A DNA stretch of 64,000 nucleotides from a virus. Below the pieces are notes generated by a model that searched no databases, was not told the origin of the DNA, and saw only the letters and a list, made by a program, of their open reading frames with translations. The stretch is taken from the IMG/VR virus record IMGVR_UViG_3300026257_000002, positions 62,001-126,000 of that record; one strand, 5' to 3'. The position numbers and the translations under genes are program-made. Shown here piece after piece: positions 2,537 to 33,800 of this stretch. Each line of letters opens with the position of its first letter. Position 1 is the stretch's first letter.

Positions 2537-3331
2537 TTATCCGATCATGTCTAGTGGTGGTAACTCTGCTGCTAACTTAAACTCTTCCATGATCACTGCA
2601 ATCTCACGTTCAGCATCCTCATAGAACTCTCTGCCGTTGAGAGATGTTCCACCAGGAAGTTGAACGTTTTTAAATTTAATTAAGTTCTGACCCCATTGAC
2701 GTTTAATCAATGAAGTAAGATATCTCTTTAACCAAACATCATTATAAACTTCTGTAGCAGTAGTAGGATCAAGCATCCTATAACATTCAACAAGTAAATG
2801 TTGTCCAGCTGTAATCTGGTCCCAGTCAGTATCAATATATAATTTATTTTCTCTTTTATTAAATCTTACTGGTTTAAAATTTCCAATAACCCAATCAAGA
2901 GTTTCCAAATATTGTTTTACCATGTAATAATTTAAGATTTCCATTGAACCAAAGTTATAGAAATCATTCAGGAATAACTGATACTTCATACTGAAGATAT
3001 TTCCAGATACCGCTGATGAACTATTGTCATAAGCATACACTTGTGTTATACCTAGAACATGATCTGGTATTGTAATAAAATTATTTTGCTCTTTAAAATC
3101 TGATCCAGCAATTGTACTGTTCGCTTTTGCGTCAGTAATCATTGACTCAGTAATTTCTATTTTTAAAAATGTTTTGATGGATCCATCAAAATGACGCTCT
3201 TGAAAGAATTGAATAGCATCGTCTACAAGATCTTCAACTTGATCATCATCTACGTTGATCTCTAGTACGGGAAAACCTAATTTCCTTAAACTATAATCAA
3301 TTAATTCCTGGCGTGATGAGGGTCGTGCCAT
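2537..3331 (-). CDS. 13: Neck protein, T4 gp13-like
   Basis: A 264-residue gp13 homologue: a portal-adjacent neck protein that with gp14 completes the head. Diagnostic features are the N-terminal MARPSSRQELIDYSLRKLGF followed by an acidic DDDQVEDLVDDAIQFFQERH segment, which is the conserved helix of this family. T4 gp13 is about 309 aa. It is the first gene of the neck operon. Upstream lie the T4-type late promoter at 3363-3370 and a terminator hairpin whose poly-T tract ends only a few bases before the ATG. The 3' arm of the hairpin carries an AGGGG that could act as a distant Shine-Dalgarno. Confidence 0.9.
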   Translation of the reverse strand: MARPSSRQELIDYSLRKLGFPVLEINVDDDQVEDLVDDAIQFFQERHFDGSIKTFLKIEITESMITDAKANSTIAGSDFKEQNNFITIPDHVLGITQVYAYDNSSSAVSGNIFSMKYQLFLNDFYNFGSMEILNYYMVKQYLETLDWVIGNFKPVRFNKRENKLYIDTDWDQITAGQHLLVECYRMLDPTTATEVYNDVWLKRYLTSLIKRQWGQNLIKFKNVQLPGGTSLNGREFYEDAEREIAVIMEEFKLAAELPPLDMIG

Positions 3332-3339
3332 GAATAAAA

Positions 3340-3367
3340 AAATACCCCTAGTTTCCTAGAGGTATTT
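3340..3367 (-). terminator. Intrinsic terminator overlapping a late promoter and the gp13 leader
   Basis: On the minus strand UACCUCUAG pairs with CUAGGGGUA (one U-G wobble) around a GAAA tetraloop, followed by seven U residues. Outer A-U pairs extend the stem to 3340/3367. It lies downstream of the 2OG-oxygenase gene and directly upstream of gp13. As plus-strand RNA the wobble becomes a C-A mismatch, so the hairpin favours the minus strand. Confidence 0.8.
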
Positions 3368-3370
3368 ATA
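3363..3370 (-). promoter_or_regulatory. T4-type late promoter TATAAATA upstream of gp13
   Basis: Perfect TATAAATA on the minus strand, 32 nt ahead of the gp13 ATG. It overlaps the outer 5' arm of the terminator hairpin. With T4 spacing the start would be near 3357, so the late RNA would lack the 5' arm. Confidence 0.75.
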
Positions 3371-6373: not shown

Positions 6374-6400
6374 AAAAAGGGGGAAATTTCCCCCTTTTTT
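6373..6400. terminator. Bidirectional intrinsic terminator
   Basis: A perfect 28-bp palindrome: six A, five G, three A, then the complement ending in six T. It sits between the convergent genes ending at 6373 (plus) and 6406 (minus), with a poly-T exit on both strands. Confidence 0.95.
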
Positions 6401-21000: not shown

Positions 21001-21717
21001 TCATAATTCTACTTTCAGAGCGATAGCAAAATTACTGATTGATACTGTAGTATTTATAACTTCATATTGTATGATGTCACCTGCATTCAAAGTGGTATCC
21101 CAATTGGTTAAATCAACGTCAGTGTTTTTATTGCTAGTTACAAGTTGCGGAGTATTACCTGCACAAATTGACACAACATTAGGATAGTCAGCAAAGCTAG
21201 ATTTTCTTAAATCTACCTCTAACGTCCCATCTGCATCAGCAAGTAAAACCCATGATTTAATAGTACCAGTAACATTAATAGTCAAATAACCTTTGTTACC
21301 TGTAGTCATTGGTCGCGAACCATTGTCCACGACATAATTAATTGTTCTTGTCAGATCAGCAGTATTAGCAAGAGCAATACCGAAAAACGGCACACTAGAA
21401 CTAGCAGGTGGGGTTGCAAATATAATCTGATTTCCAGATACTGTATATCCAACTCCAGGTTGAAGAATAATATTATCCAATGAAATAATCAATTGTTGAT
21501 CGTTCAATGGTTGATACGATTTACCAGAAGTACTCAAGTTAAATACTGTTTGAGCACCATCAAATTGCGAAGCAACATCATCCAGAATTAAATTCTGGTA
21601 TTGAACACCTTTTACTGGTGCTTCGTAATTAAGACCAACACTATAAGGATCAGTAGATTGCTGAGTTACGGTAAAATCAGTAGATCCCTGAGTTACATTA
21701 ATTTGGTAATCAGACAC
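21001..21717 (-). CDS. Fibre-associated structural protein
   Basis: A 238-residue protein starting MSDYQINVTQGSTDFTVTQQ. The central part, QTVFNLSTSGKSYQPLNDQQ followed by LIISLDNIILQPGVGYTVSG and IIFATPPASS, is the known phage fibre module in which FNL, VSLDG.IQ and I.F..PP mark a small beta domain. The C-terminal half is a receptor-type beta domain. It overlaps the upstream 114-aa gene by 1 bp. Probably a fibre subunit or fibre attachment protein of the late operon. Confidence 0.7.
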   Translation of the reverse strand: MSDYQINVTQGSTDFTVTQQSTDPYSVGLNYEAPVKGVQYQNLILDDVASQFDGAQTVFNLSTSGKSYQPLNDQQLIISLDNIILQPGVGYTVSGNQIIFATPPASSSVPFFGIALANTADLTRTINYVVDNGSRPMTTGNKGYLTINVTGTIKSWVLLADADGTLEVDLRKSSFADYPNVVSICAGNTPQLVTSNKNTDVDLTNWDTTLNAGDIIQYEVINTTVSISNFAIALKVEL

Positions 21718-22055
21718 TATATTGTCACTCCTGGTGTTATTGTTGCAATCCCTTCAATAAATCTAGTTTTATTTCCAGTTGCTGATGTTAGGACAATATC
21801 GTAAACATATCTTCTTGCCTTCAAAGTAGTTGTGATAGTATCCGATAAATCAATTCTAATTATACCACTATTTCTATCTACGAAAGTAACTTCAAAATCT
21901 GTTGGCGCTCCGGTTGTATAATAACTAGTTTTCAGTTTAGCAGCAGCAGTAAAACCCAAAAGATTGACTGGTGCGCCATCCGTATTTTTGATAGTAAAGG
22001 TTGCTGAAAAATCAGTCCCCTGTTCTATCACTAAGTTAAGTGTAATTGCGGACAT
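21717..22055 (-). CDS. Small beta-rich structural protein (fibre/baseplate accessory)
   Basis: A protein of 112 residues from the ATG at 22055 (MSAITLNLVIEQGTDFSATF). A TTG at 22061 would add two residues and has a better Shine-Dalgarno spacing (7 nt from AAGGAAGG, against 13 nt from the ATG). The EQGTDF.ATFT..N.DG.P.NL.G.T A..K pattern is an Ig-like beta domain found in many phage baseplate and fibre accessory proteins. It starts directly after a terminator that also contains a late promoter, so it should be translated from late RNA. It overlaps the 238-aa gene by 1 bp. Confidence 0.75.
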   Translation of the reverse strand: MSAITLNLVIEQGTDFSATFTIKNTDGAPVNLLGFTAAAKLKTSYYTTGAPTDFEVTFVDRNSGIIRIDLSDTITTTLKARRYVYDIVLTSATGNKTRFIEGIATITPGVTI

Positions 22056-22066
22056 ATACAAAAAAA

Positions 22067-22095
22067 GACCTTCCTTGTTATTTATAAGGAAGGTC
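22067..22095 (-). terminator. Intrinsic terminator with a late promoter in its loop
   Basis: A perfect 10-bp stem, GACCTTCCTT with AAGGAAGGTC, around a 9-nt loop, followed on the minus strand by TTTTTT. It terminates the 65-aa coiled-coil gene. The 3' arm carries AAGGAAGG, a strong Shine-Dalgarno-like sequence for the gene starting at 22061/22055. Confidence 0.9.
22079..22086 (-). promoter_or_regulatory. T4-type late promoter nested in the terminator hairpin
   Basis: TATAAATA on the minus strand lies in the loop and the last base of the 5' arm of the terminator. T4 spacing places the start near 22073, inside the 3' arm, so late RNA cannot form the hairpin and begins with GAAGGTC. Confidence 0.7.
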
Positions 22096-22105
22096 AGTAT
22101 TTATA

Positions 22106-22303
22106 TTATTCTACTTCTGGAGTTACTACTTCTGGTTCTGTAGTTTCCTCCGGTGGTTCCATCAAATCAATTGCTTCAAGAGCACCTTTTAGTTTTAACG
22201 CAAGTTCTTTCTTTGCTTCGACTTGTGCTTGGAGATTCTTGATCTCTTCAATAGTGCTATTAAATTGTTGTGTGAAATTTTCACGAAGTGTTGCTGCTTC
22301 CAT
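22106..22303 (-). CDS. Small coiled-coil protein, conserved cyanophage type
   Basis: A 65-residue protein with a heptad-like helix (IEEIKNLQAQVEAKKELALK, then LKGALEAIDL) and an acidic Pro/Glu tail. Short coiled-coil proteins with a KKEL.LKL.GALEALD core recur in marine T4-like phages by my recollection; function unknown. It has its own consensus sigma70 promoter (22327-22355), a GAGGAA Shine-Dalgarno 6 nt before the ATG, and an intrinsic terminator 11 bp after the stop. It is therefore a self-contained unit likely expressed early, although it sits between virion genes. Confidence 0.8.
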   Translation of the reverse strand: MEAATLRENFTQQFNSTIEEIKNLQAQVEAKKELALKLKGALEAIDLMEPPEETTEPEVVTPEVE

Positions 22304-22326: not shown

Positions 22327-22355
22327 ATTATACTACGAGTTATTTAGTGTGTCAA
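22327..22355 (-). promoter_or_regulatory. Consensus sigma70 promoter
   Basis: TTGACA (22350-22355), 17-nt spacer, TATAAT (22327-22332) on the minus strand: perfect in both hexamers and spacing. The -35 overlaps the stop codon of the 1110-aa adhesin. The predicted start is about 17 nt ahead of the 65-aa ORF. Confidence 0.88.
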
Positions 22356-30800: not shown

Positions 30801-33800
30801 TTGTAAATCAATTGTCTTCTTACCTTTAATTGGAGAGTATCCATTAGGAATTAAGAAAATACCACTGATACTTCCATTATCATCGGTAATAATATCTTCA
30901 CCAAAACCTTTTTCGGCATATCCAGCAACACTAGTAAATGGTGTTGTGATATTAGTAACATCATCTGGATTTGTCCATGAAGAAACGGCGATGCCATCAA
31001 AGAAAGCATATAACTTAGTATTCGGTTCGAGACCATTAACAACAAATTTAACTTGCTTAGATCTAATATAAGGATTATATGGAGTTGATAAAGTTCTTTG
31101 ACCTCGATCTGCTGCAGCAGATCCATAAGGTGAAACTCTATTTAATGTACCATTTCTAGATCTTGTTCTAGTTTTACTAGCGATAACAATATCAGGTACT
31201 GAAGCAAATTGATTAGAAGATCCAATGAAGTTAGTGGAGTTACTTAGAGTATATGTTGGCGTTCCAATCCATGAGATCTGCCATTCATTCCAAAGACTTC
31301 CCCACATTTCAGGATTATTATTTTTGATATTATCAAAAACAGAGTTTTCATTTACAATTAATTCAGGCGCTGTATCAGTATCTTTCCACTCATCAATATT
31401 AGGTTCTAATGTCATCAAACCAGCAAACTTTGCTGATTTATCTGGGTTAACTGCGATAGTTTTAGTAGCAGCTAAATTTTCTACCGTTTTCATCTCAGTA
31501 TAAGGTAGCATAATAAGCTCACCTTTTCTTATATATCCACTAGTAGCTCTTTGAGCATCATTTAAATCTTTTTCAATAAGACTTGTTTGAGAGGCAGCAT
31601 AACTAGGTCTCAAAATTCCTAATTGAGTATCAACAGCACATCTGTAATCAGATGATCCTGTATTACCAACTCCATGACCCTCAAAATTATCTACAAGAAT
31701 ACCATTCTTGAATCTGTCATTACCAAACTCATCTTTAACTTGAGTATTGAATGTATCTTGCTCCAGAAGACTTAATACTGTATAGTATTCAAGTTTCTCA
31801 ACTCTTTTTTCTAACTTACCAATGTCTCTCATCGTATAACGACGATTATCAAAACTCTTGGAAGTAATATCAGAAATACTATAGGTATAAGCAGGAATAT
31901 TTAAGTGGTATAAAAGAATGCCATCAGAAATTTCTTGAGGTATTTGTGGGTTTAGTGAAGGTGTTCCTTTTGAAACAACAAAACCACCTGTCTTAGCAAT
32001 ATAAACGGAATCAATTCTATTCAGATAGAATTGATATCCAGCATCAAAAGACGTTCCTGCAATAGGAAGTGTGGATGCAGAAGATCCTGTTCCAGTAAAT
32101 TTAAGAGCATTTACAGTTACTTTATCACTATATCCTGGAATTACTGTAGCTGTGTCAAGACCATCATAGTCAGAAACTCTTGGTCTAAAGTCAACTGTAT
32201 CTCTAAGTGAAATTCTTCCATAAACACTTGAGTCATAGTATGGAATATCTTTATAAGTAATATTGGTATATGAGTCTACTGTAAAATAATCACCGGTATT
32301 AACACCACCAATATGTTTGAAGTAATCGAATACCACAAGAAGTCTGCTGGTAGGTGCAATTGCTCCTGGTTTTAGTGTAATACGAGCAAGATCATAATGT
32401 GTATCTCTTTGACCACCATCAAAATTAAAGCGATCAGTGACTTGAACATCGTTATTAGTGGCAGGTGAATCAGTAGCAGACATATAAACTGCTTTTAATT
32501 TCAGTCCATCAGCATACTGAATGGGAATCGAAGGATCTGAAAATCCACTAGATACATGATATTCTTGATTTTCTACAAGAATTTTAGTCTTAGGAGAAGT
32601 ATCTACCTTTCTTACAGGAGCAATTAACTTAAATGGAATGTTAGCAAACGTAACACCAAGATCAATTGTAATACTTTGAGCACTATTGCCCAAATCTACT
32701 TTACCAGAGAGGTCAAGTAATTCACCAGTATTTGGATTTGTCATCACATAATTTTCTGATGTATATCCAAGGAACTGCTCGTTCGTTCCTACGCTAATAT
32801 TAATAGCACCACTAGCATCGAGATTTCCTAAGAATTCTTGCTGCACTGTATAGTTGATATTGGTATTATTAGCATCCAATACCATTGTTTTTACATGCTT
32901 ATTTGGTAGTGGATATATTAGAGTATTAGTCTCAGCACCAGAAAGTTTTGAACGAATTCTAGAAATTTTCTTAGTAGAGAATGATGATAGAATAGCACCA
33001 TAGATATAAATTTTAGCAGAATCTCCACTACCATCAGGTACTGCATATTTTACTGAGTATTTTCTAGTAACACCAGGATTATCAACAACAGCAATAACAT
33101 CTCCTGTCACTAGATCTACATCTGGTCTAGATCCAAGATTATCTGCCTTAATGAAATAGTCTCCTTCGGTAGCACTAAATGTAGCTCCATTATCGATATA
33201 ATATGAAAGATCATTGCTGTAAATATCACCAGCAAAAGGATTTCCTGTTGTAGCATTAAAGAAACTCTTAACGAAAGATGAATCATAATTTACGATGGTG
33301 TTAGCATTCAGGTTTGCTGCGACAAAACATCCACTCCCAGTAGGGTCAACAATTTCTATAGTAGGAGGAGTAACAAATGTTCCTAATGCTAACCTTGCAG
33401 CAGGTGTAATTGTGATAGATCTAATTTCATTATTTAAAATAACGATATTTGCAGCACCAATGTCAGTAAGTCTATTTACACCATTAATGTTGATTGCAGT
33501 GATATTTGTATTTAAGTTATATGCAGAACCAAAAGATATCATCTTAAGTGATGCTAAAGAACCTTTTGGTTCTACGAAATTATATGGGGTTGAGGTTTCA
33601 TCTTGTTCAGAAAGTAAAGTCTCTCCGTCAATAAAAGTGCCGGAAACTCTAGATAAAATTACTTCATTTGTATCATCAATTAACTGCTCTACAATTCCTC
33701 TAGCACCACTTGTCTGACCAGTAATGAATTTACCTAATGAGAAATTTAGTGGATTTCTGCATAAAATTTTAGTAAAGTATTCTGCATTGAATAAACCAAG

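Follow-up and report, generated by a model that had tools for sequence, protein, structure and literature searches.

The window, by which we mean the whole stretch of DNA analysed here (64,000 nucleotides, bases 62001-126000 of an incomplete virus record 132,522 bases long), carries on its minus strand a 65-aa gene followed by a gene of the LtfC-like type, and between the two lies a hairpin in which an intrinsic terminator and a T4-type late promoter motif overlap (Table 1). Against the phage collection, tblastn at E 1e-3 gave no match to the 65-aa protein; a link to S-PM2 p095 emerges from HMM and pairwise comparison, and a homologue of the 65-aa gene also lies 5' of the S-PM2 element described below. 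The sigma70 promoter before this gene is kept in 11 of the 12 relatives whose sequence is readable, the remaining one having TTGACG, and CTAAATA was seen by eye in its spacer in all relatives with a readable promoter. The overlap of the two motifs (22327-22355) is possibly a nested early/late dual promoter, in line with S-PM2, for which early and late promoters are reported to overlap (PMC2984593). A homologue of gp55 is encoded in the genome (tblastn, G000 47807-47439, 37% identity, E 1e-15). Elsewhere in the window, at 6376-6397, AAAGGGGGAAATTTCCCCCTTT forms a bidirectional terminator with T runs on both strands.

Table 1. Features of the locus and of a second composite in the window, with the basis of each assignment.
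Feature	Position	Strand	Basis
Intrinsic-terminator hairpin, perfect 10-bp stem and 9-nt loop	22067-22095	minus	read from sequence, RNA folding, relatives
T7 tract of the terminator; predicted part of the downstream gene's leader	22060-22066	minus	read from sequence
TATAAATA, T4-type late promoter motif in the loop, predicted start 22073	22079-22086	minus	motif, conservation
Second TATAAATA, 5' of the hairpin and reaching into the end of the stop region of the 65-aa gene	22098-22105	minus	motif search
Weak Shine-Dalgarno candidate AAGGAAGG within the 3' arm	22069-22076	minus	read from sequence
Downstream gene, 112 aa, LtfC-like (phrog_1084; phrog_3304, L-shaped tail fibre assembly), start ATG 22055	21717-22055	minus	profile and relatives
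Upstream gene, 65 aa, phrog_580	22106-22303	minus	profile comparison
Perfect sigma70 promoter, TTGACA-17-TATAAT, before the 65-aa gene	22327-22355	minus	motif search
Late-type CTAAATA within the sigma70 promoter spacer	22341-22347	minus	motif search
Second composite: 12-bp terminator (3340-3367) whose 5' arm is overlapped by TATAAATA (3363-3370)	3340-3370	minus	
gp13-type head-tail adaptor Ad2 (phrog_211), ATG 8 nt past the stem of the second composite	2537-3331	minus	

Anatomy of the hairpin and further composites in the genome

Read along the minus strand, the hairpin runs GACCTTCCTT-ATAAATAAC-AAGGAAGGTC and is followed by T7 (22066-22060). Five of the ten pairs are GC and the T run follows the stem without a gap, the layout of an intrinsic terminator; the preliminary description had the perfect 10-bp stem right and gave the tract as T6, one T short. 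As RNA, the hairpin folds at -18.8 kcal/mol (z = -5.1) and none of 200 shuffles was equally good, so the fold is not due to chance. An Rfam search of the element returned sub-threshold microRNA matches only.

The late motif lies in the terminator loop, as had been described, with its first T serving as the final base of the 5' arm and its remaining letters in the 9-nt loop, and it has the location of a late promoter motif, 23 nt 5' of the ATG at 22055. In T4, the late motif occupies positions -13 to -6 relative to the start (PMC1524935). Applying this spacing here predicts a late start at 22073, inside the 3' arm, in agreement with the earlier placement. The abundance of TATAAATA in the 64-kb window shows no enrichment (9 occurrences against 9.2 expected), and we therefore dropped the argument from counts and rely on position and conservation.

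The same genome holds at least three more such composites, placed before gp13, before a phrog_8438 gene and before rusA. The first is the second composite of Table 1; in the second, TATAAATA overlaps a CCCC/GGGG terminator (G000 31684), and in the third, TCTAAATA overlaps a 13-bp terminator (G000 20527). Two successive late promoter motifs precede the phrog_8438 gene, in a tandem 25-bp repeat of agatctttaaTATAAATAcccc that lies outside the window (L010; G000 31677-31729, minus strand). These other copies, like the second TATAAATA at 22098-22105 and the upstream sigma70 promoter with its CTAAATA, had been missed in the preliminary description.

Conservation among relatives and recurrence in marine phages

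Relatives of the downstream protein are encoded by 57 viral contigs, the 35 closest of which share 77-100% identity with it. The hairpin with an intact TATAAATA is found in 35/35 of these close relatives, and TTATAAATAA is unchanged across 17/17 aligned rows. The arms of the stem do vary: two contigs (L038, L041) have a G-U pair and three others (L023, L026, L047) a different one, and in a further three (L039, L040, L044) linked changes in both arms restore nine perfect pairs. A run of at least six T directly after the stem is present in all close relatives and in most sister elements, and the second TATAAATA is absent from about half of the close relatives. These comparisons support the view that terminator and late promoter form one conserved element. 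More distant relatives and isolates have no hairpin, yet several of them keep ATAAATA at the same place before the same gene, so what is shared widely is the late promoter, and the hairpin is a trait of one group.

A scan of 2.86 Mb from 15 marine T4-like genomes gave 27 sites at which the late motif ATAAATA or CTAAATA would place a start within a terminator-like hairpin. This amounts to 24 per 1000 motif occurrences, against 4.2 for 20 one-letter variants in a per-occurrence control that is partly confounded by the clustering of both late motifs and terminators between genes. The rates of ATAAATA (18/735) and CTAAATA (9/387) are close to each other, at 23-25 per 1000, the other variants among the 22 all stayed at or below 10 per 1000, and ATAAATA has the top rate of nested starts among 21 anagrams. 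The enrichment remains when the window genome and G001, a near relative, are left out (17.4 vs 3.9 per 1000, P = 2e-6). Since late motifs, like terminators, concentrate between genes, a local comparison matters: 17 ATAAATA starts lie inside hairpins with an estimated mean length of about 20-25 nt, against 12 in the 60 nt upstream. Starts just past terminators are commoner, with 40 ATAAATA starts within 60 nt; 37 late motifs in these genomes start right behind the T tract, which is the ordinary order.

CTAAATA, first noticed at rusA and thus not preselected from the variant test, behaves like a second late motif in the marine T4-like genomes scanned. In phage Aeh1 it has been reported as the late motif (PMC1524935), and the one reported for S-PM2 is NATAAATA (PMC2984593).

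The nested terminators are closely tied to gene starts: an ORF of at least 40 aa begins within 22 nt of 17/26 of them, compared with 78/992 other terminator-like hairpins (Fisher 1e-12), and in most composites the T tract almost adjoins the ATG of the next gene. Two forms can be told apart: an edge form, whose promoter touches or overlaps the 5' arm, and a loop form, whose promoter sits at the apex, as in the window, in S-PM2 before g13, in S-CAM1 before the phrog_8438 gene, in S-CAM3 and in ACG-2014f; the preliminary description had suggested looking for the motif in terminator loops of other marine T4-like phages, and the last four carry it there. The gp13 junction carries the edge form in the window phage and the loop form in S-PM2, the phrog_8438 junction the edge form in the window phage and the loop form in S-CAM1, and the rusA junction ATAAATA in S-PM2 and CTAAATA in the window phage. 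That three shared junctions bear composites of differing sequence or geometry across phages suggests selection for function. In S-CAM7, a composite precedes a phrog_16 helicase. Among cultured phages, elements of this kind lie at S-PM2 66787-66815, before g13, at S-PM2 115176, before rusA, and at S-CAM1 126712, S-CAM3 165824 and S-CAM7 109872.

The composites are not universal. Nine of the 15 marine genomes hold at most two composites, and several of them (Syn9, S-SSM7, P-HM1, HTVC008M, Mosig) hold none. Some of the nested hairpins in this set may be chance occurrences, and among the weaker sites are S-PM2 102826 and S-CAM7 186414, where the first ATG opens no long ORF or only an unclear one. 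T4 has no terminator-nested late motif (0/65 ATAAATA, 0/31 CTAAATA), and the parts scanned of Aeh1 and KVP40 hold two and one, respectively; for this reason, the nested late promoter is mainly a trait of the marine phages in this sample.

When viral contigs were searched by pattern, 81 had ATAAATA ahead of a CCCC/GGGG terminator, and a control motif gave 34. An ATG lies within 22 nt in 62/80 of the cases examined, against 4/36 for the control heptamer. In several contigs mazG lies upstream and the downstream family differs (phrog_8438, phrog_3560, phrog_1462, or none); L269, L274, L281, L282, L289 and L333 share the mazG end and the promoter-terminator cassette and continue with genes of different families. 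Exchange of genes at the cassette has been proposed for PeSLs, and a constant mazG followed by varying genes would be compatible with it here.

A probable start-site-dependent switch and its alternatives

The anatomy, conservation, recurrence and motif-specific enrichment of the element argue for a switch that depends on where an RNA starts, a reading that we consider probable and in which the activity of promoter and terminator, the position of the start and any effect on translation are predicted from sequence. Polymerase arriving from upstream, from the sigma70 promoter (22355-22327) or from earlier late starts, would transcribe both arms; the full hairpin with U7 would form, and upstream transcription would end after the 65-aa gene. 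A gp55-type late polymerase would instead start at the TATAAATA of the loop, with its RNA beginning near 22073 in the 3' arm. Because this predicted start lies past the 5' arm, the locally started RNA could not form the terminator and would run into the tail-fibre-assembly gene, and the former 3' arm and the U tract would become the 18-nt leader of that gene. The preliminary description had cast the element as a gate between early and late transcription, which does not stand as such, because late RNA from further upstream would stop too: RNA from the CTAAATA at 22341-22347 would also be stopped. The predicted gate sorts by start site, not by time, and needs no early/late clock. A point against the switch is that RNA started from the second TATAAATA would still fold a 7-bp hairpin.

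The conserved motif and the conserved T run each bear on a simpler account. The hairpin could be just the terminator of the 65-aa gene, with ATAAATA an incidental product of an AT-rich loop and the downstream gene served by leaky read-through. A terminator is expected after a gene preceded by so strong a sigma70 promoter, but the motif is invariant, is present in distant relatives that have no hairpin, and is specifically enriched inside terminators, all of which makes this account unlikely. Conversely, the locus could hold a plain late promoter, as is expected there, with a hairpin that does not terminate and acts on 5' or 3' RNA stability or processing; a 3' hairpin can protect RNA, but the terminator-like run of six or more T behind the stem, kept by every close relative and most sister elements, would be left unaccounted for, and we regard this account as improbable.

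A further possibility, proposed in the preliminary description, adds translation to termination: the ribosome site would be hidden in read-through RNA and exposed in late RNA, as in T4 gene e. The unpaired probability of AAGG is 0.00 in read-through RNA and 0.56-0.93 in RNA starting at 22073 or 22071, GGAGG or GGGAGG occurs in the 3' arm of the S-CAM1, S-CAM3, S-PM2 rusA and S-CAM7 186414 elements, and T4 e, soc, 49 and I-TevI operate in this manner (PMC3014915). Against it, an RNA starting at 22075 re-pairs the site (only 0.05 unpaired), the ATG has an unpaired probability of 0.74, and the 3' arm of some sister elements contains CCCC or CTCC. The spacing is also poor. The earlier distances of AAGGAAGG, 7 nt to a TTG and 13 nt to the ATG, were measured correctly; AAGG lies 13 nt and the AGGA core 16 nt from the ATG at 22055, and Shine-Dalgarno cores in this genome lie mostly 3-14 nt from the start and precede 17% of its long genes, compared with 56% in T4. 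The TTG, offered before as an alternative start, was rejected, as relatives carry an in-frame TAG just 5' of the ATG. Of the proposed double gate, the sequence supports the transcriptional part, and the translational half is weak, which leaves the combined reading doubtful, though worth entertaining. Within the start-site-dependent switch, the hiding of AAGG from ribosomes in read-through RNA would thus be a secondary effect, possible and not well supported.

Relation to known systems and meaning for marine T4-like phages

Hairpin control by late promoters is known for T4 e, soc, 49 and I-TevI (reviewed in PMC3014915). In these genes, as in segB and in mobE of Aeh1, the late promoter lies inside a hairpin that is formed by read-through RNA and not by late RNA, and the same holds here, with the late promoter in the 5' part of the hairpin and the predicted late RNA devoid of the 5' arm. 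T4 gene e, when read and folded, has the form AATACCTTCT(ATAAATACTT)AGGAGGTATT-ATG with a stem of about 10 bp, and its TATAAATA begins with the final base of the 5' arm, which is also the register of the window element. The two differ in that gene e has no U tract, sequesters a Shine-Dalgarno sequence at good spacing and does not terminate, whereas the window element has an added T7 tract and a poor Shine-Dalgarno sequence and precedes a structural gene. T4 gene 49, which encodes a resolvase like RusA, is itself under late-promoter hairpin control (PMC3014915).

A second point of comparison is the PeSL cassette. Arbiol in 2010 and Comeau in 2014 reportedly described PeSLs in T4-like phages as cassettes of a sigma70 early promoter and a stem-loop; the likeness lies in the joining of promoter and terminator in a small intergenic cassette, and the difference is that PeSL promoters are of the sigma70 early type, whereas the late promoter of the window element overlaps the stem itself. 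The element is accordingly no PeSL, its nested promoter being of the late type and the sigma70 promoter lying about 230 nt upstream. It also differs from the ordinary order of terminator and then late promoter, where the start lies beyond the hairpin and not inside it. In the part of the literature covered, no account of a terminator-nested late promoter came to light. The preliminary remark that no description of this exact nesting had been seen thus holds for the added terminator function and not for the union of late promoter and Shine-Dalgarno sequence in one hairpin, which is known from T4 gene e; neither for the U-tract terminator version nor for its marine recurrence did we find a description.

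Taken beyond this locus, the data lean, by a modest measure, towards a recurrent module of about 30-40 bp in marine T4-like phages, in which a late promoter would be built into an intrinsic terminator, the 3' arm and U tract would supply the leader of the gene that follows, and the whole would close the upstream unit and open a late one, having repeatedly arisen or been rebuilt at the same junctions. Cyanophages are without the T4 proteins MotA and AsiA, and how their transcription classes are kept separate is unsettled (PMC2984593). A terminator blind to RNA started inside it would provide a simple insulating rule that needs no extra protein, and the arrangement would extend the switch of T4 gene e from translation to termination. 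The model predicts specific RNA ends in the cultured phages S-PM2, S-CAM1, S-CAM3 and S-CAM7, and the composite may explain the swapping of downstream genes behind mazG.
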